DNA from: Robiginitomaculum sp.
GTDB lineage: Bacteria > Pseudomonadota > Alphaproteobacteria > Caulobacterales > Maricaulaceae
DNA length: 64,000 nucleotides
Assembly (NCBI GenBank): GCA_021776565.1
Contig: JAJFFQ010000005.1
Location: 1 to 64,000 of the forward strand
Reading direction: 5' to 3'
The position numbers and the translations under genes are program-made. The notes beneath the pieces were generated by a model that was not told where the DNA came from, did not search any database, and saw only the letters and a program-made list of their open reading frames with translations. Positions within the stretch are counted from its first letter, which is position 1. The number at the start of each line of letters is the position of its first letter. Positions 7,691 through 20,396 of the stretch are shown in pieces.

Positions 7691-8068
7691 TTATTTCTCG
7701 CGATGCAAAAACGTTGAGGCCAGCAGTATCAGGCCCAAGACCACACCCGGTGTAATAGAGCGCGGTAATACCTTGGCCAGGGTCAAAGGTGTCTCCATCG
7801 GCACAATAATGAGAAAGTAATATGTCGCCAGACCGGCAGCCCCTAAAACCAGTGGCAAAACAAGCGCGGCACCATAGCGGGCATAACCTTCAATTTTCTG
7901 TACCAAAAACCAGGAAAGAAAATAGGGGATCACCGCCGTCATAATAACCAGCAATGCTGTGGTCATCATATACCCCGGTTGGGCCATCATTGCCGGGGCC
8001 ACGGCAAATTTCAAATAGCCATAGATCGGCAGGAAGATCAAAAACCCGATATGTTTCTGGACGTTCAT
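7691..8068 (-). CDS. Small four-helix membrane protein, unknown function
   Basis: A roughly 125-residue hydrophobic protein with about four membrane helices (around FLIFLPIYGYLKFAVAP, ALLVIMTAVIPYFLSWFLV, YGAALVLPLVLGAAGLATYYF and PGVVLGLILLASTF). I do not recognise the family. The ATG at 8068 is preferred over the start 48 bp upstream because GGGATACACAA precedes it as a plausible ribosome-binding site and the extra N-terminal residues look non-coding. It lies upstream of the APC permease on the same strand with an 81-bp gap. Confidence 0.65.
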   Translation of the reverse strand: MNVQKHIGFLIFLPIYGYLKFAVAPAMMAQPGYMMTTALLVIMTAVIPYFLSWFLVQKIEGYARYGAALVLPLVLGAAGLATYYFLIIVPMETPLTLAKVLPRSITPGVVLGLILLASTFLHREK

Positions 8069-8214
8069 TTGTGTATCCCGATTAGTTTGTTGACCGTTAC
8101 ACCCTTGCGTATGCACGTGTTACCGGCAAGTTACATTTTCGATATAAACCGCACGCTCATCAGAGCGAAAATGGATCATATTGTTTCCATAAACCACCGC
8201 CCATCAAATAACTT

Positions 8215-8346
8215 TGTCATCCCGGAAAAACGTCAGTCCTCAAATAGCGAAGCGATAGGACAAACAAAATGCCTTATCCGGGAACCATAGTGCATGATAC
8301 TTCACAATAGATCCCGGATAATTTTTACAAAATTTCCGGGGTGACA
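8215..8346. repeat. 132-bp palindromic intergenic repeat element
   Basis: The ends are near-perfect inverted copies: TGTCATCCCGGAAA on the left and TTTCCGGGGTGACA on the right (13 of 14 match). Inside are a small hairpin with GTCCT / AGGAC arms and a second CCGGGA...TCCCGG pair. This architecture matches the widely dispersed TGTCATCCCGG-type palindromic elements of alphaproteobacteria. It fills the space between the small membrane protein and the 3' end of the dehydrogenase gene, ending 10 bp before that gene's stop. Confidence 0.75.
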
Positions 8347-8356
8347 CACATATTTA

Positions 8357-9184
8357 CTATCCGGGCATTACCGCCGAGCCGGCCAATATGCCACCATCAA
8401 TGGTTAGCTCTGTGCCGGTGATATAGGCCGCCTCGTCCGAGGCCAGAAGCAACGCCAGGGCGGACACCTCCTCCACCGTGCCAAAGCGCCCCATCGGGGT
8501 GTCGATCACCAAAGTCTTCATGCGCGCTTCGCGATCTTCGCCCTTGCCCAGCATGGGTTCCCACATGGGGGTCAGGATCGCCGCCGGGTGGATAGAGTTA
8601 CAACGGATATTCAGGTCGTTTTGTGCGCAATAAAGCGCCACGGTTTTGGTATGGTTGCGAATGGCCGCCTTTGATGAGGCATAGGCCGCTGCACCCGGTA
8701 TTCCCACCATGCCCGAGCGCGATGAGATATTGATAATGGATCCGGAACCGCGCCTGCGCATGGCACCAATGGCATAGCGGCAGCCCATAAACGTACCATC
8801 CAGATTAACTCGGTGCACGGCACGCCAATCCTCAAGGCTGGCGTTTTCCGGATCGTGTGCAACAATTTTTCTTTGCGCTATTGCGGTGCTGACGCTTAGC
8901 TTTTGAGCGCGAAAACCCTCCTCGAACCCGGTAATGCCGGCATTATTGACCAGCACATCCAGTTCGGGCACGGTTTTGGCCATGTGCGACCAGTCAGTTT
9001 CACAGGCAACATCAAGTTTGATAAACTCTGCGCCCATGTCTTTGGCAACTGCGTTACCATTGATCTGGTCAATATCAGTAACATAAACCTGTGCGCCCTC
9101 CCGGGTAAAAGCCCGTGCGATAGCCTCGCCAATGCCGCGCGCAGCACCGGTGACCAGGCATAACTTGCCGTCGAGTCGTTTCAT
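8357..9184 (-). CDS. Short-chain dehydrogenase with an in-frame repeat insertion
   Basis: Classical SDR oxidoreductase of 275 residues acting on an unknown alcohol/ketone with NAD(P)(H). Visible motifs are the nucleotide-binding TGAARGIG (residues 12-19), NNAG at 80-83, the catalytic Ser in INISSRSG, and YASSKAA for the catalytic Tyr and Lys. Asp at the end of strand 2 (VTDID) favours NAD. Residues 92-106 ([16 protein letters not shown]) interrupt the NNAG loop just where the family normally runs straight into DPEN..SLEDW; those codons are a copy of a short repeat that also occurs at 13757-13796. The protein is 15 residues longer than the 260-residue SDR encoded at 19614. Whether the enzyme is still active is unknown, but the frame is intact. 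Confidence 0.92.
8872..8911. repeat. 40-bp repeat copy 1, inside the dehydrogenase gene
   Basis: These 40 bases match positions 13757-13796 at 39 of 40 sites (the difference is T at 8882 against C at 13767). The repeat begins TTTGCGCTAT and ends TTTTGAGCGCG and has short GCGCT/AGCGC inverted ends. This copy is entirely within the SDR reading frame, in minus-strand frame without a stop codon. Confidence 0.9.
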
Positions 9185-9321
9185 TTTGATTGTCCTGAAA
9201 AAAGAAAAGAAATTGCGGGCGTGGTTTTGCCCCGTCAGTCTTTACCGATTACTAGCGGTTACGCTTGTTCATTGGCTTTTCTCCTCAAGAAAGCCACGTA
9301 TCTCATCAAAACTGTGCGGCG

Positions 9322-9780
9322 TCAATTCTTTGGCGTGTTGCCCATGAGGTAACGCGGCCCGGCGCCCCATTTCTGGGCCACGTCTTGTGCATTATAGAGC
9401 GCACACTTTTTCAAGGATAAACAGCCGCAACCAATGCAGCCGGTCAGTTTTTCCCTGAGCAGGGTCAGGCTTTCAATGCGTTCATCAATTTTGCGACCAA
9501 AGCTGCGGCTGATGCGTTGCCAATCTTTTTTCGTAGGCGTGCGCCCTTGAGGAAGTAACGCCAGTTCTTCGCGAATTTGGCTTAGCGAAAACCCTAACTT
9601 TTGCGTGATAATGACAAAGGATATACGGCGAATGTCGGCTGGCTCAAACACCCGCCGCCCACCAGCATCGCGCGTGGATTGCACCAAACCCTCCATCTCG
9701 TAATGGCGGATGGCTGATACCGTAATGCCAGTTCGATCAGCCACTTTGCCGATCAGAAATCCCTTGCGTGATGCGGTCAT
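9322..9780 (-). CDS. soxR: Redox-sensitive transcriptional activator SoxR
   Basis: MerR-family regulator of 152 residues: N-terminal winged-helix (GKVADRTGITVSAIRHYEMEG), dimerisation helix, and the diagnostic [2Fe-2S] cluster motif CIGCGCLSLKKC (C-x2-C-x-C-x5-C) near residue 120. Oxidation of the cluster by redox-cycling compounds switches SoxR to an activator. The ATG at 9780 follows AGGAGG by 5 nt, which decides against the GTG six bases upstream. It is divergent from the VOC-fold gene, and the intergenic DNA carries a perfect SoxR operator, so that gene is the likely direct target. No soxS gene is present, as usual outside enterobacteria. Confidence 0.96.
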   Translation of the reverse strand: MTASRKGFLIGKVADRTGITVSAIRHYEMEGLVQSTRDAGGRRVFEPADIRRISFVIITQKLGFSLSQIREELALLPQGRTPTKKDWQRISRSFGRKIDERIESLTLLREKLTGCIGCGCLSLKKCALYNAQDVAQKWGAGPRYLMGNTPKN

Positions 9781-9802
9781 ATTCACCTCCTGAAAAAAAC
9801 AC

Positions 9803-9833
9803 TTGACCTCAAGTTAACTTGAGGTCGTAGATT
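9803..9833 (+). promoter_or_regulatory. SoxR operator inside a MerR-type promoter
   Basis: A perfect 20-bp palindrome ACCTCAAGTTAACTTGAGGT (9806-9825) lies within a promoter with -35 TTGACC (9803-9808) and -10 TAGATT (9828-9833) separated by 19 bp, the overlong spacer characteristic of MerR-family activated promoters. The core equals the known E. coli soxS SoxR box. The promoter points at the VOC gene; the same dyad could also autoregulate soxR on the other strand. Confidence 0.93.
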
Positions 9834-9873
9834 AGATTCAAACCCTAGGCAAGCATTGAAAAAGGAGGTCATC

Positions 9874-10332
9874 ATGACCGCAAGCGTCTTGGAACATATC
9901 AATATAACCGTTCGTGACCCACAAATAACCGCCGCGCGGCTTTGTGCGCTGTTTGGTTGGAAAATCAGATGGTCAGGAAACGCCATTAATAATGGTTATA
10001 CCGTGCATGTAGGCGGCAAAAACTCCTACCTTGCCATCTATTGCAAAGGATCGCCCATACGGCAAAATACCAGCAGTTATTCGCGAATTGGCGGTCTTAA
10101 TCATATTGGAATGGTGGTTAACGATCTGGATAAGGTGGAGCGAAAGGTCGAAAAAGCCGGGTTTGAGACCTATTCTTTTGGCGATTATGAACCGGGTAGG
10201 CGGTTTTATTTTCGTGATCCTGATGGGATTGAATTTGAGGTTATCAGCTATCAGCCAAAGTTCTCAAACTGGAAACATGACTTTTTCAAAAGATTGGGCG
10301 TGATGTCCGAATATGGAAGCTTGAGGAAATGA
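9874..10332 (+). CDS. VOC-superfamily (glyoxalase/bleomycin-resistance fold) protein
   Basis: A 152-residue protein with one VOC domain pair of beta-alpha-beta-beta-beta units: VLEHINITVRDP at the N terminus supplies the first metal-type His, GGLNHIGMVVNDL starts the second unit, and FRDPDGIEFEVISY provides the usual C-terminal Glu. Members are metal-dependent lyases, dioxygenases or drug-binding proteins; the exact reaction cannot be assigned. The ATG at 9874 follows a strong AGGAGG by 5 nt. It is transcribed from the SoxR-type promoter just upstream, so a role in detoxifying a redox-active compound or electrophile is a reasonable inference. Confidence 0.85.
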   Translation: MTASVLEHINITVRDPQITAARLCALFGWKIRWSGNAINNGYTVHVGGKNSYLAIYCKGSPIRQNTSSYSRIGGLNHIGMVVNDLDKVERKVEKAGFETYSFGDYEPGRRFYFRDPDGIEFEVISYQPKFSNWKHDFFKRLGVMSEYGSLRK

Positions 10333-10359
10333 ATAACTGGCCACTGACGCGGTGCGGGA

Positions 10360-11118
10360 TCATTCATCGCCCTCAACCATATCATGAGTAATGCCAAGGG
10401 CCTGATCCAGCGCATCGTGTAACAAGATCAGCGATTCTGTTACCGGTACCACTGCGAACACGGCATAGTGCGCATATCGATCCCTGTTATCGACAAACGT
10501 GTTCATGAACCCTTGGTCGGCTTTCATAGCATCTACATCGCATCGTGCGCCCGTCCTGATTTTAGGTACGGAATTTTTATCGCGAATTGTCTCAAGTTGA
10601 ATGAGCTTTGGGAAACCGCGCGCCAATGTGAAAATGTTTCTGTTCACCGCATCAATCACATCACCACCGCGCAAGGCGCTCTGATTGAACCGCGTAATTG
10701 CCGCCCGAACGCCTTTTGCCTGCAGAGCATCAAAACGCCCGGTTGATAAAAGCTCAGTTATTGTTGGCAGGTCTGCTGTCGGGTTTGAATAGATATGTGA
10801 TTCAGCTATTGCTTCACATTCAGCGTCTGTCAGTGCCTGGCGATCCGACTGGTTTTGCAAAACCGCAACGACACTGGTTAATGCCAGTTGATTGTCTTGT
10901 ACATCCATAATGTAGCGAAATCTGTCCTGGGTTAATTGCACAACCTCGCCATGCAGCCTGTTCAAATAACCTTTCTCGCTTTCCCGCTGGCCAGCGTTGG
11001 TGGCCCATTGCTGAACCTGAAAACCCATAAACACACCGACCACGACAATGACGAAGTCAATGCCAACGGCAAACCAGTTCTGGTCGGTTACATGCTTCAT
11101 AACGCGGCGCAGGATCAT
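10360..11118 (-). CDS. Membrane-anchored protein co-translated with ParDE, unknown function
   Basis: A 252-residue protein with one N-terminal transmembrane helix (residues about 17-36, FAVGIDFVIVVVGVFMGFQV) followed by a long soluble, mostly helical domain rich in Gln, Arg and Asp. The ILRRVMKHVTDQNW-FAVGIDFVIVVVGVF start resembles a widespread proteobacterial family (DUF6090-like) without known function. Its ATG overlaps the stop of the ParE gene by 4 nt (ATGA), so it is the third gene of a translationally coupled parD-parE operon. It converges with the VOC gene, 27 bp apart. Confidence 0.75.
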   Translation of the reverse strand: MILRRVMKHVTDQNWFAVGIDFVIVVVGVFMGFQVQQWATNAGQRESEKGYLNRLHGEVVQLTQDRFRYIMDVQDNQLALTSVVAVLQNQSDRQALTDAECEAIAESHIYSNPTADLPTITELLSTGRFDALQAKGVRAAITRFNQSALRGGDVIDAVNRNIFTLARGFPKLIQLETIRDKNSVPKIRTGARCDVDAMKADQGFMNTFVDNRDRYAHYAVFAVVPVTESLILLHDALDQALGITHDMVEGDE

Positions 11119-11438
11119 TTCAACCTCTCAATCAAATCTGGCAGGTTTGAGCTTTCATGCAAAAACTCAATAATTTCCAGCAATTCATCTGTTTGGCGCA
11201 AAATAATGAAATGACCGCCTTCACGATAAAACGTTAGTCCCTCGACGTCCGAACGGCCTGGCATCAACAAACCGCAAGAGCGCGGATGAGGCGGTGTGCC
11301 AACAGCAATCGCATCTATCTGTTTTATCAGTCCATCGCGGTAAGCAAGTGCTTGCGCCTGGCCAAAGCGGTCGAATGTCCAGACTGCAATATCGATAAGG
11401 CTTTGTTCTGCCTGTGGTGTTAACCGCCATGGCTTCAT
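11115..11438 (-). CDS. parE: ParE/RelE-superfamily toxin
   Basis: A 107-residue protein of the ParE type: it opens with LTPQAEQSLIDIAVWTFDRFG (family pattern of helix 1-2), has ALAYRDGLIKQIDAIA, then a Gly/Arg-rich strand region and YREGGHFIILRQTDELLEIIEFLHE, the typical beta-sheet core. ParE toxins poison DNA gyrase. It follows the ParD gene with a 4-nt ATGA overlap, the normal antitoxin-first order, and is itself overlapped by the downstream membrane protein gene. Confidence 0.9.
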   Translation of the reverse strand: MKPWRLTPQAEQSLIDIAVWTFDRFGQAQALAYRDGLIKQIDAIAVGTPPHPRSCGLLMPGRSDVEGLTFYREGGHFIILRQTDELLEIIEFLHESSNLPDLIERLK

Positions 11439-11719
11439 GAGGTTGTTTTGTTACACGCGGTGTCAAAGGCGCGCCGCACGGCGTCCTCGCCCGAGCCTTG
11501 CGCGAATACGCCCCTGTCGGCCTGATCGAGTGCTTTGTCTATACGCACGCGAATTTCCATAAGGTTAGCCTGATGACGCTCGCGCCCGTCGCGTAAGGCA
11601 CGCAAACCGTCGCGCATGACTTCGCTGGCGCTTTTATATTCACCAGCGGCGACAAGAGCGTCGACCCACCGATCCCATTCTGCCGTCAGGGCAATGCTCT
11701 TGGCGTGTTGAGCAGGCAT
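11435..11719 (-). CDS. parD: ParD-family antitoxin
   Basis: A 94-residue ribbon-helix-helix antitoxin: KSIALTAEWDRWVDALVAAGEYKSASEVMRDGLRAL is a full CopG/ParD DNA-binding domain, followed by a charged C-terminal tail that should wrap the toxin. The ATG at 11719 lies 6 nt after AGGAG, which is better than the start ten codons upstream. It should repress its own operon. The 134 bp separating its start side from the next genes upstream hold the promoter but no clear operator that I could pick out. Confidence 0.9.
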   Translation of the reverse strand: MPAQHAKSIALTAEWDRWVDALVAAGEYKSASEVMRDGLRALRDGRERHQANLMEIRVRIDKALDQADRGVFAQGSGEDAVRRAFDTACNKTTS

Positions 11720-11853
11720 GTTTCGCTCCTGTGCATAACGAAGTTTCAACAGTAATATAAAGCAGGGTAGTAATAATTACCACCCTTGTTTGCAAAACTC
11801 TAAAAAGCAATCAACCGGCTCTGGTGTTTAACGTATTGGAATGCAGAAAACAC

Positions 11854-12069
11854 CTAAAACCGGCCCCGGCCCTTGCCGGTTTCAATACCAAACATGTTGG
11901 CCAGATGCACCAGCATGACAATAGCGACCACAAGGGCGATCATATAGACCGGCTTCCAGCTAAACAGGATCGGGTTGCCCGGCTCACGCGGGCGGCTGTC
12001 GCGCCAGGCACCAAAGGCAAACACGAAAACGGCCAGGACGAGGACAATCAGGGTTATGGTCAATGTCAT
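11854..12069 (-). CDS. Small two-helix membrane protein
   Basis: A 71-residue protein with two hydrophobic segments (LTITLIVLVLAVFVFAFGAW and YMIALVVAIVMLVHLANMFG) separated by a short charged loop with SRPREPGNP, and a basic Gly/Arg tail. I do not recognise a function. The ATG at 12069 is chosen because the longer upstream reading frame overlaps the glycosyltransferase gene and looks non-coding. It lies 31 bp downstream of that gene on the same strand. Confidence 0.6.
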   Translation of the reverse strand: MTLTITLIVLVLAVFVFAFGAWRDSRPREPGNPILFSWKPVYMIALVVAIVMLVHLANMFGIETGKGRGRF

Positions 12070-12100
12070 AATGTTATATTTGAGCGTCCGCCAGACATTA

Positions 12101-13594
12101 TCAAGGTCGGCGTTTAGCCTTTGGCGGTGGGCAGAACCCGTGCCGGGTTTTTTCCCAGTGGAAGGGACGAATGACAATATCCACCAGGGCTTTGGCCATG
12201 GCCCAGCTTTGCATTGACCAATAAAGCACTGCGCCCGGTAAATCCCCAATGGTCACAGCAAATCCGGCGCGCCTTGCCCCGACGCCCAGCATTATAATCC
12301 CGACCACAAATCCGCTTGCAGCAAGCCCATAATCAGCCAGGGACAGCATGCTGCCCAGCCATGGCGAAAGAACAAGGCTAATGATGAGTAAAATAGAAAA
12401 AGACGCATGGCCCAATGCCGCCAGAACAGCGGTGCCCAGCGTCATGGTTATGGATAGCATACCGGCCAGTGCATTTTGCCTGGCCGGGCGGCGCATATGC
12501 ACGCCTAAAGTTTGCATATAGCCCTTGAGCCAGCGCGAGCGTTGGCGACGCCAAGGCCCCGGGCGCGAAACCGCTTCTTCGCGTGTTGGCGGAATAATGG
12601 CATCCAGATGCCATCCGTTTGCGCTTAACCGATAACCAAGATCAGCATCTTCGGTGACGTTATAGGGATCCCAGGCCCCTACATGACGCAAGGCAGAGCA
12701 GCGAAAATGGTTGCTGGTGCCGCCAAGGGGAAAGGGCAAGCCAAGGCGCGCCATGGCCGGAAGCAGCACCTGAAAATGCGCCGCATATTCAAGCGCGAAC
12801 TGGTGAGTCAACCAGTTCTGATCGGCATTATAATACGACAACGGTGCCTGCACACAGCCCAGACGGCCCGTTGCATCGCATGCAAACGCGCGCGCCGCAT
12901 GTAGTAACTGATCGGGGTGCGGGCGATCTTCGGCATCATAAATGCTCACCAGTTCACCTCTGGCTCTGGCAAAGCCGACATTGAGCGCCTTTGGCTTGGT
13001 TTGCGGGCCAACGGGTGGCACGATGAGAATTTCCCATTCAGGGCCAAGCACACGACCTTTAAGTGCCTGAATGGTTTGCTTGTCGTCGGCCTCCAGCAAC
13101 AGCTTCACATCCAGTTTTAACTTTGGATAATTGAGCGCCCCGATGGCCTCGCATAAACCACCCAGAACCTCGGTTTCCCGGTAAAGCGGGATCAGTATGG
13201 TATACACAGGCAGATCGCTCTGCGGCGGTAATGTGCATGTGGTTTTGGGCCGTGATGACAGCATCAGCATGAGTATACGAAACGCAATAGAGACCGAAAA
13301 AAATAACCAGAGAAAATGATGTACAAACAGTGCCGTTGCCTGTGGGGCAATTATCACCAGGCCAGCCAGAAAACCAAGCAACCCGGCCAGTGCCATACGT
13401 TGCGCCCGGGTAATTCCAAGGGCCGCAGATGCCAGTGGGTCGCCATGGCGCAATTGTCCAGCGGCCATAGCCGTAGCCTTGCAACCGAGCTTATGAACCT
13501 GTGCTGCACCAACACCTTGCCTGTATGACTGCCTCTGACCAGAGGCGTCATGGTTCCAGGTTCGCTTTGGGCGAACCGCCATTTTGAATTTCAC
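12101..13594 (-). CDS. Membrane family-2 glycosyltransferase
   Basis: A 497-residue inner-membrane enzyme with two N-terminal membrane helices (about residues 68-110), a GT2 catalytic domain (about 128-360), and a C-terminal block of three or four helices (about 385-475). Catalytic-site signatures are the nucleotide-binding VYTILIPLYRE, DAED at 220-223 in the DxD position, TEDADLG as the base region, and RQRSRWLKG, the (Q/R)xxRW product-site motif of processive GT2 enzymes. A processive beta-glycan or similar polymer synthase is inferred; no partner genes are nearby. The GTG at 13594 lies 6 nt after GGAGG, whereas the ATG four codons later has no well-placed site. Confidence 0.88.
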   Translation of the reverse strand: MKFKMAVRPKRTWNHDASGQRQSYRQGVGAAQVHKLGCKATAMAAGQLRHGDPLASAALGITRAQRMALAGLLGFLAGLVIIAPQATALFVHHFLWLFFSVSIAFRILMLMLSSRPKTTCTLPPQSDLPVYTILIPLYRETEVLGGLCEAIGALNYPKLKLDVKLLLEADDKQTIQALKGRVLGPEWEILIVPPVGPQTKPKALNVGFARARGELVSIYDAEDRPHPDQLLHAARAFACDATGRLGCVQAPLSYYNADQNWLTHQFALEYAAHFQVLLPAMARLGLPFPLGGTSNHFRCSALRHVGAWDPYNVTEDADLGYRLSANGWHLDAIIPPTREEAVSRPGPWRRQRSRWLKGYMQTLGVHMRRPARQNALAGMLSITMTLGTAVLAALGHASFSILLIISLVLSPWLGSMLSLADYGLAASGFVVGIIMLGVGARRAGFAVTIGDLPGAVLYWSMQSWAMAKALVDIVIRPFHWEKTRHGFCPPPKAKRRP

Positions 13595-13756
13595 CCCGTT
13601 CCTCCCCGTAAAGGAAAAGTAACATTACCGCATGAACAAAGCGAATCATTATTGAAAATAGGCAATCATCACTTGGATAGAGGTTTTATAGTCCGTATTG
13701 TTCATTAACTAAACTTGTTTAGTCGGGTTAGCCATGTCCGCAAAAGCGTGCCTTTT

Positions 13757-13796
13757 TTTGCGCTATCGCGGTGCTGACGCTTAGCTTTTGAGCGCG
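13757..13796. repeat. 40-bp repeat copy 2, intergenic
   Basis: Second copy of the repeat found inside the dehydrogenase gene (39 of 40 identical), here in non-coding DNA and in the same plus-strand orientation. It starts within a run of seven T. The surrounding 13595-13933 interval holds no recognisable gene. Confidence 0.9.
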
Positions 13797-13933
13797 GCTC
13801 TGTGTTCACCCTCCCGGCGACAACCGGTAGATCAGCACTGCAGCTTTTGTGGCATTGCGTTTGAGGGTACTCATATCGGATAAGGCTATTGCCTTTGCGG
13901 AATGACAGGGATGGATGTTTTTGCCGTCTCAGC

Positions 13934-14018
13934 TTGTCATTACCCGATTTTATTCGGGTAATCCAGAGCGGCGTTACAAAGCAGGACTGGATTACCGGGA
14001 CAAGCCCGGTAATGACAA
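13934..14018. repeat. 85-bp palindromic intergenic repeat element
   Basis: Outer inverted ends TTGTCATTACC and GGTAATGACAA are perfect over 11 bp. Inside, TTACCCG/CGGGTAA and ATTACCGGG/CCCGGTAAT make further arms and ATCCAG/CTGGAT pairs across the centre. This is the TTGTCATTACC flavour of the same class of alphaproteobacterial palindromic elements as the one at 8215-8346. The element is translatable on the plus strand but no gene is implied. Confidence 0.8.
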
Positions 14019-14054
14019 TACGAGGTTGTTTTTAACGCCAAAACAGGAGGGAAA

Positions 14055-14165
14055 ATCCCGAAAAATCAAGCGAGTAATGGCACTGTGGATGTCAGCCCCG
14101 AAGCCCTTTATACCGATTTATTGGCTGCCGGGAAGTTAAAGTGTGAGGACGAGGCGGTTAGATGA
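14055..14165 (+). pseudogene. Possible decayed gene fragment
   Basis: A 36-codon open frame ends at a TGA at 14163-14165 and reads protein-like (VDVSPEALYTDLLAAGKL). A strong AGGAGG (14045-14050) lies 4 nt before an ATC codon where an ATG would be expected. The LY..L.AAGKL pattern is loosely like the N terminus of AFG1/ZapE-type ATPases, but the match is weak. I suggest a relic left after rearrangement by the adjacent repeats; chance is also possible. Confidence 0.2.
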
Positions 14166-14169
14166 AAAT

Positions 14170-14919
14170 TTATTTATACCAACTCAAAATTGCTGCACGG
14201 CTAGAGGCCAGAATATAAAGCCAGATGAGCCAACCGGGTATGGAAAGCCATGCGCCGTCAATTATATCTTCAACAATGCCGATCGCCGTAAATAGCCCTA
14301 AAACACCATAAAAGATCAAGGTCAACCAACTGGTTACTGGATGGTTGGTATGCCAAATCCATAAGGGAACGGGCAAATTTGCCCTAAATAGCTGGATAAC
14401 ACCCAGCACGATTGTCGTGACCGTCAAGTTTTTAAGCGCATGAGTGGTATACATCATGGGGATTGCAATGGAATCTGCCCAAATGGGTAATTGACCTCTG
14501 GTTAGTGCTGATAGATTTCGCTCAAAAGCCCCCAGAAGGATAAGCACTGTGCCAACCACAGCAATAAGAATGAACAACCACCGCCTTGAAGGGGTAGACC
14601 ATTTCTTCAAGCTATAGAGTTTGCGGAACACCAGAAAAAGATAAACGGCAAACAGGGCCAGGCCAAACGAAAGAAGCCCCTGACCTGCATCCAAGACAGG
14701 ATATTTTTTGGTACTGACACCCGCCAGTCGCTGATGCCAGTTTTCCATAAAGGCATCGTACTCTTCTTTTGGTAAAGCCTCCCAACTATAGTCAGATGTA
14801 ATGGTTCTTGCCAATTCTTCATTATGATACACTGGCATGATGCTGGAGAAAATAATCAGTGTAATTGCCACCAGAACCACAGCGATAGCAGACCAGAAGA
14901 ATACATTTTTAGTAAACAT
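14170..14919 (-). CDS. Polytopic membrane protein, unknown function
   Basis: A 249-residue protein with one N-terminal helix (VFFWSAIAVVLVAITLIIF), an extracytoplasmic loop of about 55 residues, and five or so further helices (LLSFGLALFAVYLFLVF, WLFILIAVVGTVLILLGAF, IPMMYTTHALKNLTVTTIVLGVI, SWLTLIFYGVLGLFTAIGIV, GWLIWLYILASSRAAILSW). I do not recognise the family. The ATG at 14919 follows an AAAAGGG site; the longer frame would run into pntB. It lies 31 bp downstream of pntB on the same strand and may be a tail gene of that operon. Confidence 0.75.
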   Translation of the reverse strand: MFTKNVFFWSAIAVVLVAITLIIFSSIMPVYHNEELARTITSDYSWEALPKEEYDAFMENWHQRLAGVSTKKYPVLDAGQGLLSFGLALFAVYLFLVFRKLYSLKKWSTPSRRWLFILIAVVGTVLILLGAFERNLSALTRGQLPIWADSIAIPMMYTTHALKNLTVTTIVLGVIQLFRANLPVPLWIWHTNHPVTSWLTLIFYGVLGLFTAIGIVEDIIDGAWLSIPGWLIWLYILASSRAAILSWYK

Positions 14920-14950
14920 AATACGCCCTTTTACAGGGACAAACTTACCC

Positions 14951-16360
14951 CTAAAGCGCCTTGTTGATCTCCTCGACCATTTTTTTGGCATCCATCAAGA
15001 GCATCATGGTGTTATCGCGGAAAAAGAGCGGGTTTTCGATACCGGCGTATCCGGCCCCCAGGGAGCGTTTGATAAACATCACCGTGCCGGCATTCCACAC
15101 GTTCAGCACCGGCATGCCGTAAATCGGCGAGGTGGGATCATCCTCGGCTGCGGGGTTGGTGACATCATTGGCGCCGATAACAAAGGCCACATCGGCGGTG
15201 CCAAACTCGGTATTGATATCCTCCAGCTCGAACACATCATCATAGGGCACATCGGCCTCGGCGAGGAGCACATTCATGTGCCCTGGCATACGCCCGGCCA
15301 CCGGGTGAATGGCGTATTTAACCTCGACGCCTTCTTCCTTGAGAAGGTTAGCCATTTCCTTTAGCGCGTGCTGGGCCTGGGCCACGGCCATGCCATAGCC
15401 GGGCACAATGATGACCTTGCCGGCATTTTTCATGATAAAGGCTGCATCTTCGGCGGCACCGCGCTTGACGTTACGCTCGACCCCGTCATCTTCGGCGGCG
15501 GCGGCAGTTTCGCCAAACCCGCCCATAATGACCGACAGAAATGAGCGGTTCATACCCTTGCACATAATGTAGGAGAGGATCGCCCCGGACGAGCCAACCA
15601 GCGCGCCTGTGATAAGCAATGCCGTATTTTCCAGCGTGAAACCCAAAGCAGCAGCAGCCCAGCCGGAATAGGAGTTCAGCATGGAGACCACCACCGGCAT
15701 ATCCGCGCCGCCAATGGGAATGATGAGCAGCACCCCAAAGACCAGCGCAACCAGTGTCAGTATCCAGAACAATGACTGTGCTTCCTGTCCTGTGCCATGG
15801 GTACCGCCGAGCATGAAGACCAGCACAATGGCAACGCCAAGCAGACCAAGATTGATAATATGCCGCAGGGGAAGAAGGATCGGCTTGCCGGACATGTTGC
15901 CGTTCAGTTTGGCAAAGGCGATGACCGAACCGGAGAACGTCACCGCACCAATAAACACGCCCAGGGATAATTCGATCAAGGATTGTAAATGCAGTGAGCC
16001 GTCCGGGTTGTTTATGCCAAAGGCCTCAGGCGCATAAAGCGCGGCGGCGGCAACAAAAACGGCGGCCATACCAACGAGGGAGTGAAAGGCGGCAACCAGT
16101 TGCGGCATGGCGGTCATGGCAATGCGCCGGGCAATCACCGCGCCGACCGTGCCGCCAATGGTTAGCCCGCCAAGGACAAGAACCAGAGTCATAAAGTCAA
16201 GACGAATGGCAAATAGCGTCGTCAGGATGGCAATGGCCATGCCGGCCATGCCGTAAAGATTGCCCCTGCGGGCGCTTTCCGGCGAGGCAAGCCCGCGCAA
16301 GGCCTGGATAAACAGAACCCCGGAAACCAGATAAAGAACAGCAGCAAGATTGGCACTCAT
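14951..16360 (-). CDS. pntB: NAD(P) transhydrogenase subunit beta
   Basis: A 469-residue inner-membrane subunit of proton-translocating transhydrogenase: nine or so helices in the first 270 residues, then the NADP(H)-binding domain III with VIIVPGYGMAVAQAQHAL (the GYGMAVAQAQ NADP loop), YAIHPVAGRMPGHMNVLLAEA and VIGANDVTNPAAEDDP near the C terminus. It couples hydride transfer from NADH to NADP+ to proton entry, supplying NADPH. It follows pntAB with a 6-bp gap in the order pntAA-pntAB-pntB, the split arrangement typical of alphaproteobacteria. Confidence 0.97.
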   Translation of the reverse strand: MSANLAAVLYLVSGVLFIQALRGLASPESARRGNLYGMAGMAIAILTTLFAIRLDFMTLVLVLGGLTIGGTVGAVIARRIAMTAMPQLVAAFHSLVGMAAVFVAAAALYAPEAFGINNPDGSLHLQSLIELSLGVFIGAVTFSGSVIAFAKLNGNMSGKPILLPLRHIINLGLLGVAIVLVFMLGGTHGTGQEAQSLFWILTLVALVFGVLLIIPIGGADMPVVVSMLNSYSGWAAAALGFTLENTALLITGALVGSSGAILSYIMCKGMNRSFLSVIMGGFGETAAAAEDDGVERNVKRGAAEDAAFIMKNAGKVIIVPGYGMAVAQAQHALKEMANLLKEEGVEVKYAIHPVAGRMPGHMNVLLAEADVPYDDVFELEDINTEFGTADVAFVIGANDVTNPAAEDDPTSPIYGMPVLNVWNAGTVMFIKRSLGAGYAGIENPLFFRDNTMMLLMDAKKMVEEINKAL

Positions 16361-19613: not shown

Positions 19614-20396
19614 ATGGCGGGACGGCTAACAGGAAAACGTGCAGTTATTACAGGTGGTGCATCGGGGCTTGGCGCGGCAATGGCACAGATGTTTGCGGCT
19701 GAAGGGGCGCAAGTTGCGCTTACAGATATTAATCTGGAAGGCGCGCAGGTTATGGCCGCCAGAATAAATGCTGAGTTTCAAGGCGCAGCCCATGCGTTTG
19801 CCCACAATGTGGCGGACGAGCAAAGCTGGATAGAGGTGGTTAAACAGGCCGATGAGGCGCTTGGTGGCTTTAATGTGCTGGTCAACAATGCCGGTATTGG
19901 CTCTATGGGTTCGGTAGAGGAGGAAAGTTTCAAAAACTGGAAAAAAGTCATGTCGGTGGACGCGGATTCGGTTTTTCTGGGTTGTAAATACGCCCTTGGT
20001 GTTATGAAAAACCATGCACCGGGAAGTATTATCAACATATCATCTATTGCCGGTCTTTATGCGGCCGGTAATATGAGCGCCTATAATGCCGCCAAGGCAG
20101 CCGTTTGGCTTTTGTCAAAGTCTGTCGCCTTGCATTGCGCCTCTCAAGGCTATGATATTCGCTCCAATTCCATACACCCGGTATTTATCAAGACGCCAAT
20201 TTTGTTTGGCATGGGTAAGGTGCTGGAGGCTGGTTCTGATGAAGAGTTGATGAACAAACTGGCGCGCGGTATTCCGCTTCGCCGCATTGGTGAGCCGGAT
20301 GACATTGCCTATGCGGCGGTTTATCTGGCCTCGAACGAGTCCAAATTTATCACCGGGATAGAACTTAAAATTGATGGGGGTATGAGCGCCCAGTAA
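19614..20396 (+). CDS. Short-chain dehydrogenase, glucose/3-oxoacyl-type
   Basis: A 260-residue SDR with TGGASGLGAAMA (residues 12-23), TDINLEG (Asp at the end of strand 2, favouring NAD), NNAGIGSMG, Ser in INISSIAGL, YNAAKAA for Tyr/Lys, and the C-terminal LASNESKFITGIELKIDGGMSAQ typical of classical SDRs. It is the closest relative in the window of the dehydrogenase at 8357 and lacks that protein's inserted segment. Third gene of the phhB operon. Substrate unknown. Confidence 0.92.
   Translation: MAGRLTGKRAVITGGASGLGAAMAQMFAAEGAQVALTDINLEGAQVMAARINAEFQGAAHAFAHNVADEQSWIEVVKQADEALGGFNVLVNNAGIGSMGSVEEESFKNWKKVMSVDADSVFLGCKYALGVMKNHAPGSIINISSIAGLYAAGNMSAYNAAKAAVWLLSKSVALHCASQGYDIRSNSIHPVFIKTPILFGMGKVLEAGSDEELMNKLARGIPLRRIGEPDDIAYAAVYLASNESKFITGIELKIDGGMSAQ

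Follow-up and report, generated by a model that had tools for sequence, protein, structure and literature searches.

One question raised by this locus is whether a short palindromic repeat has entered a protein-coding gene without breaking its reading frame and, if so, what kind of repeat it is and how it spreads. The window analysed here is a 64,000-nucleotide stretch of a Robiginitomaculum sp. genome (hereafter G000; other G-numbers are the genomes compared with it). A preliminary description, made from the letters of this stretch, had reported that positions 8872-8911, inside a gene for a short-chain dehydrogenase (SDR), repeat an intergenic sequence at 13757-13796, and the identity it gave, 39 of 40 positions, proved correct. 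A 37-nt pattern allowing up to 3 mismatches matched the window twice and matched none of 100 shuffles. The features are collected in Table 1.

Table 1. Features of the window that bear on the inserted repeat
Feature	Position	Strand	Basis
SDR-family dehydrogenase, 275 aa, interrupted in frame	8357..9184	-	ORF; Pfam adh_short and adh_short_C2; invariant columns
Inserted unit: T-rich leader (8 nt), 36-nt hairpin and GAAA	8867..8914	+	codon comparison with empty orthologues
Hairpin core of the SDR insert, long type	8875..8910	+	patterns and covariance model
Second copy, intergenic; hairpin 13760-13795	13757..13796	+	pattern matches, covariance model
Short-type copy GTC-CTATCGCTTCGCTATTTGAG-GAC, between ORFs 7691-8116 and 8357-9184	8236..8261	-	exact core match

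The hairpin adds 16 codons to a dehydrogenase gene

SDR orthologues were collected at E values up to 1e-60 from 99 genomes, the own genome included; 30 genomes had a match, 29 of them besides G000, and the orthologues used for the comparison were 56-81% identical. The segment was missing from 27 of the 29, and the remaining two (G017 and G004, of the same genus) were filled at the identical site. Codon comparison with the empty orthologues gave an insert of 16 codons (48 bp, minus-strand residues F91-K106), instead of the 14 or 15 residues (92-105) first reported. The 260-residue SDR at 19614, which had served as the reference without the segment, is a paralogue with 44% identity, and its 15-residue difference in length is a coincidence. 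The central claim, that a repeated palindrome was inserted in frame and added protein sequence, is confirmed by the empty orthologues. Among the 99 genomes the segment was carried by congeners only, with no unrelated genera, and the repeat is multicopy elsewhere in the genome, not confined to the SDR gene; on both counts the insertion withstands the checks that the preliminary description had proposed. That the 16 residues are instead an ancestral SDR loop, resembling the intergenic copy by chance, is hardly credible. Slight variation in loop length does occur in two of the empty orthologues (G011, +5 residues; G051, +4), but the 39/40 identity, with no match in the shuffles, the absence of the segment from nearly all orthologues and its sharing of one co-varying palindrome with many other copies all argue against this.

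Residues S155, Y168 and K172, which we take to be the SDR catalytic set, are all retained in the interrupted protein and fall in invariant columns of the alignment. Outside the insert the gene is under purifying selection (dN 0.119, dS 0.698, G000 against G017). An AlphaFold2 model from a 4-sequence alignment had a mean pLDDT of 69.6, with residues 84-112 under 50, and places the insert in a stretch that it does not resolve, between a core strand and a helix. The segment would be a surviving insertion and is probably near-neutral protein sequence. No target duplication was evident at the SDR insertion site, which, if anything, counts against a mobile element.

The second long-type copy lies between ORFs 12101-13594 and 14170-14991. 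The short-type copy scored weakly with the model (E 0.31), and at 3 mismatches 2 of 100 shuffles also matched. Positions 13936-14020 of the window hold another palindromic repeat (TCATTACCCG...CGGGTAATCCAG plus reverse), resembling sequence beside the hairpins at loci L081 and L109.

The palindrome family is concentrated in one genus

The union of a covariance model and a gapped core pattern gave 73 candidate hairpins in 51 clusters in G000. The model had 51 matches at E up to 1, with 150 of 1052 candidates scored, and the pattern likewise had 51, of which 50 were listed; since the 73 also include at least three model matches that look spurious, this number bounds the true count in neither direction. 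The model matches in the pyruvate kinase gene (C21:671), at C35:84462 and at C54:35614, all counted in these totals, look spurious, as do the ORFs C63:3120 and C63:4424.

With up to 2 mismatches, the long-type pattern was found in 13 of the 99 genomes, all 13 within the genus, and the reversed control gave none. In a collection of 84,980 species, from which entries for G000 itself or for very close genomes may be missing, it was found in 14 stretches, all from MAGs named Robiginitomaculum sp., a genus that the NCBI taxonomy puts in Robiginitomaculaceae, Maricaulales. The core was present in 16 of the 18 genomes of the genus, and its matches ranged from 0 to 181 per genome, the richest being G005 (181 matches, 77% complete) and G014 (161 matches, 99% complete). 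Outside the genus it occurred in 9 of 81 relatives, with a maximum of 31 matches in G026, and in a sample of the class in 18 of 385 genomes, G000 and G064 included. The reversed pattern also gave a few matches, at most 2 per genome in the 99-genome survey and at most 4 in the class sample, and a lone core match in a distant genome may therefore be due to chance. Two distant Alphaproteobacteria deserve mention: G159, a 1.7-Mb genome with 33 core matches, and G426, with four match pairs at a spacing of about 2.47 kb that may mark rRNA operons.

Rfam gave no match to window positions 8000-14200 at E up to 1, a blastn search of plasmids with the 48-bp SDR insert found none, and viral contigs held no exact match to the long-type pattern. 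The shorter gapped core matched 47 viral contigs once apiece, possibly by chance. No description of this palindrome family was found in the literature searched, which covered few subscription journals.

Conserved pairing defines a two-part hairpin

The structure was analysed in 225 distinct hairpins from the retrieved loci, using three outer pairs that lie outside the core search pattern. These pairs were formed in 204, 209 and 194 of the 225, against shuffle means of 109, 165 and 179 and shuffle maxima of 130, 175 and 189; related copies were counted separately, and the shuffles are hence a guide and not a probability. The fourth position outward had no pairing excess over the shuffles. This pattern describes a two-part hairpin of 26-36 nt that follows a T-rich leader. 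Its outer stem is short (5 bp); inside it come an internal loop, asymmetric and conserved, and an inner part that is variable. Unit lengths were 33-51 bp (48 bp in the SDR gene, steps of 33-38 bp in the arrays of G014 and a step of 51 bp in an aminotransferase gene). RNA folding of the two window copies on both strands gave structures no more stable than those of shuffled sequences (z from -0.11 to -1.28); the case for a hairpin therefore rests on covariation.

Copies are mostly intergenic and, where grouped in tandem, form same-strand arrays with T-rich linkers. The T fraction beside the 225 hairpins was 0.63 on the left and 0.45 on the right, and a run of at least 4 T within 9 nt was present in 92 on the left and 64 on the right. 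Some hairpins lie within larger palindromes. At three G014 loci (L145, L157 and L165), tandem arrays either adjoin the halves of a larger palindrome (AGCATTTTTAGCAAAAGTGGGAA...CCGGTTTTGCGGTTC) or lie between them, as though hairpins inserted into hairpin loops. Several of the G000 loci L051 and L054-L061 are intergenic composites: GGGGATAAGT or ACTTATCCCC arms adjoin at least one hairpin, and AAGGGTCA-like words recur nearby. In three congeners (L079, L084 and L099) a hairpin precedes a small gene and about 37 bp are repeated on both of its sides, possibly as a trace of the insertion mechanism. Locus L003 (G000 C52:1-2972) contains a CRISPR-like array with a 36-nt repeat and apparent cas genes, cas9 among them, as judged by eye; one hairpin copy separates two of these apparent cas genes and is a few nt away from where one of them starts.

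Clusters are frequent behind tRNA genes

In G000, 6 of the 51 clusters begin 12-23 nt behind a tRNA (ends from the Rfam model), all on the same strand, against an expectation of about 0.009 clusters within 25 nt. Among the retrieved loci, a sample shaped by the matches listed and with identical contexts removed, 28 of 138 distinct clusters followed a same-strand tRNA at a distance of at most 60 nt and 1 followed a tRNA on the opposite strand; in 23 of the 28 the spacing was 7-11 nt (ARAGORN ends). Several tRNA species were involved, as well as one genome of another family (L298).

This frequent position makes a cellular role possible, so that the selfish nature suggested in the preliminary description may not apply, and the tRNA link could mean a cellular function, which counts against the mobile-element reading. 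Under such an explanation the hairpin would be a module of the cell that selection keeps behind tRNAs as a 3' trailer or a stem resembling a terminator, and the other copies, those in genes included, would be stray duplicates made by recombination or template switching and not by transposition. The strand bias, the narrow spacing and the excess over expectation in G000 agree with it, and so do the T-rich flanks on both sides of the hairpin. However, no tRNA directly precedes 45 of the 51 G000 clusters, and G014, despite its 161 core matches, has only two tRNA-linked clusters (one at 9 nt and one at 41 nt) among the 41 made from the 100 matches listed. The copy number, moreover, varies from none to 181 within the genus. 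We regard this explanation as rather unlikely.

Copies in other genes

Besides the SDR gene, one other G000 gene carries copies and two more probably do; 50 of the 51 clusters were checked for frames of at least 90 aa. An alanine-glyoxylate aminotransferase gene (C74:53964-55175) contains two tandem long hairpins in frame. Its product aligns to PDB 1vjo at residues 8-241 and 275-401, with an interruption of 33 residues across which the 1vjo chain is continuous. In a PuuE-like deacetylase the match to solved relatives stops at residue 309 of 328, and in a prophage DksA-like protein the phage matches (10 listed of 169) cover residues 5-76 of 111; judging from these alignments, both have probably gained a hairpin-derived C-terminus. 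The DksA-like protein and an endolysin are encoded on a prophage-like contig of 28 kb (L181 and L182, G000 C41), on which 7 of the 51 clusters are located, including two that are weak model matches. A 154-aa ORF with several hairpins in the prophage, a candidate insertion, had no phage match by tblastn and weak PHROG matches only.

In all four genes (SDR, aminotransferase, PuuE-like and DksA-like) the gene strand is opposite to the hairpin strand, which may be chance. Both window copies have no open forward frame. The idea that copies in genes are antisense because their forward strand is closed was rejected, as the aminotransferase and other long-type copies have an open forward frame.

In G014, frames of at least 110 aa cross 7 of 102 sampled hairpins, from 40 of the 41 clusters. 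One crossing is at a C-terminal end, one is in an implausible ORF and five are in an array before a pseudopilin-like sequence; none of the 102 was convincingly within a gene, which counts against the mobile-element reading. The array (L226, G014 C15:3323-6375) has its five hairpins at 33-bp steps in a single open frame and may be an extended leader or merely an upstream array.

The same gene sites are filled in separate lineages

The three carriers of the SDR insert (G000, G017 and G004) form no single clade, G004 grouping with the empty G006 and G002 at 99/98 in the DNA tree, and the starred branches of the protein and DNA trees force at least two changes. For the aminotransferase, 16 sequences were obtained from 15 of 61 genomes, its own included. 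Four had hairpins at one site (two long ones in G000, one short one each in G006, G012 and G017), nine were empty, G004 and G010 had 4 extra codons and G076 a different loop. These carriers again form no single clade, and at least two changes are forced. Since the carriers are ungrouped in both gene trees, the sites have been filled repeatedly, exchanged between lineages or precisely emptied. If the changes number three, they may also be one gain and two losses. The distribution could thus reflect recombination or precise loss and not repeated insertion, which counts against the mobile-element reading.

The insert itself differs between G000 and G017 at 11 of 48 sites and the remaining SDR gene at 151 of 774, values compatible with simple descent in this pair. 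For G000 and G004 the corresponding values are 5 of 48 and 206 of 777, which would fit a single origin of the SDR and aminotransferase insertions, followed by allele recombination or repeated precise loss of elements that are old and immobile now. The grouping of G004 with empty relatives points the same way, as does the SDR copy being the sole member of its subtype among the 6 long-type matches of G004. Just downstream of the insert, moreover, G004 and G006 agree at only 19 of 39 aligned sites, compared with 44-55 of 60 for most other windows; this may be a recombination tract or a misalignment of the loop. Yet immediately upstream of the insert G004 is identical to both G006 and G002 (24 of 24), extra codons adjoin its insert, and the hairpin types at the aminotransferase site differ between species. 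A single origin is therefore, in our estimate, an explanation of low probability.

A bolder reading can be put forward tentatively: the hairpin may be an element with the 3' flank of tRNAs as its special target, at 7-11 nt from the CCA end, which some enzyme moves and which has re-entered the same codon sites of enzyme genes in separate lineages.

Proposed spread of the element and search for a mobilising enzyme

The family has many copies with conserved pairing, mostly intergenic and often at 7-11 nt from tRNAs, with a few in-frame copies in genes and with filled and empty sites in relatives. The explanation towards which we lean, with modest confidence, is that short palindromic elements of one family have spread through a Robiginitomaculum-like genus, moved in trans and entering genes in frame. 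As the units are too short to hold a gene of their own, the enzyme that moves them would probably act in trans and might recognise the hairpin when the DNA is single-stranded; slippage would afterwards multiply the tandem copies. Within genes, the survivors would be those copies that keep the frame and lie in a tolerant loop or at the C-terminus. Searches with PF01797 and PF00078 found no mobilising enzyme, which counts against this reading.

A related proposal takes the element for a REP and credits its movement to a RAYT (Y1 transposase) since lost or located elsewhere. Short imperfect hairpins, tandem groups and a mostly intergenic position are features of REPs, and a Y1_Tnp gene is present in G000 and some congeners. 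The hairpins, however, have no GTAG tag outside the stem, and four Y1_Tnp loci (1.8-3.4 kb), two of them in the hairpin-bearing genomes G000 and G004, are without the hairpin core. None of the 73 G000 hairpins is on C12, the contig carrying the Y1_Tnp gene; Y1_Tnp was not found in G014 or in G005 (77% complete), the two richest genomes, and it was found in G001, a genome without a core match. This distribution, together with the hairpin-free Y1_Tnp loci, disfavours a RAYT/Y1 transposase as the driver, and we consider the proposal improbable. A reverse transcriptase as driver was also unsupported: PF00078 was found in 6 of the 18 genomes of the genus, including G014, and not in G000 or G005.

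Comparison with known palindromic repeats

The preliminary description had likened the repeat to the Rickettsia palindromic elements (RPEs) and presented it as new outside the Rickettsiales. The likeness holds in part. RPEs are described in the excerpted text of PMC10969869 as palindromic repeats of about 150 bp, intergenic and also in frame within genes, where they add a peptide, and the in-frame copies in the SDR and aminotransferase genes, with their empty orthologues, agree with this. The present units differ in being 33-51 bp long, in lacking a terminal CGTC, in which the R. conorii RPE sequences end (excerpts of PMC3733652), and in lying often behind tRNA genes. The novelty had been overstated, as the same excerpts report intragenic REPs in X. 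campestris, X. oryzae, O. terrae, Thauera, E. lithoralis and S. alaskensis. In enterobacteria, repeat units (RUs) have been found within genes with the frame kept; according to the part of PMC2759123 consulted, these are small mobile sequences like the present ones, 103-168 bp long and in other hosts. In-frame palindromes outside the Rickettsiales are thus already known, and what appears to be new is this repeat family, a tRNA-linked variant.

With GTAG and CGTC REPs, as excerpted from PMC3733652, the family shares hairpins of 20-40 bp that are mostly intergenic and in some cases intragenic. Different REPs occur there at about the same recB site in two Xanthomonas species, which compares with the recurrent gene sites found here. 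The present family differs in that neither GTAG nor CGTC ends its units, the internal loop is asymmetric, tandem arrays keep to one strand and have T-rich linkers, and a position behind tRNA genes is preferred. CGTC REPs, which predominate in Alphaproteobacteria and are described in that excerpt as being without a dedicated transposase, carry CGTC at one end of a stem of 8-9 bp with a loop of 4-5 nt, in contrast to the 5-bp outer stem here. CGTC or its complement lay at most 8 nt from the core in 37 of the 225 hairpins in one flank orientation, with 5 matches in the others; these occurrences would come from GTC/GAC stems followed by G. Outside the core, no more than 2 of the 225 had GTAG or CTAC within 8 nt, and 151 had CTAC within the hairpin. 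GTAG REPs are associated with RAYTs, unlike the present family with its hairpin-free Y1_Tnp loci. Like REPINs, which in the excerpt of PMC3116915 are non-autonomous hairpin DNA thought to be moved in trans, the present elements would depend on another enzyme, but REPINs are inverted REP doublets tied to RAYTs, whereas here the copies are same-strand tandems and no RAYT link was found. As for the target-site duplication of MITEs, the SDR site has none evident, and one hairpin in three congeners has the flanking repeat of about 37 bp.

The small dispersed repeats of cyanobacteria are very small mobile hairpins, and from their general description the present family resembles them in size. In the broad sense of REP-like short interspersed palindromes, the family fits by its copy number, conserved pairing and mostly intergenic position.

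Significance

Filled and empty sites in close relatives provide comparative cases in which a repeat has lengthened two enzymes outside Rickettsia, with more than one version of the repeat at the same site. The tRNA-linked position and the recurrent gene sites are what may surprise a specialist. If re-entry into the same codon sites is true, the same protein loops would have been lengthened repeatedly by different versions of one repeat. A family with a preferred position at tRNA 3' ends also raises the question of whether these ends are a landing site for such repeats or their source.
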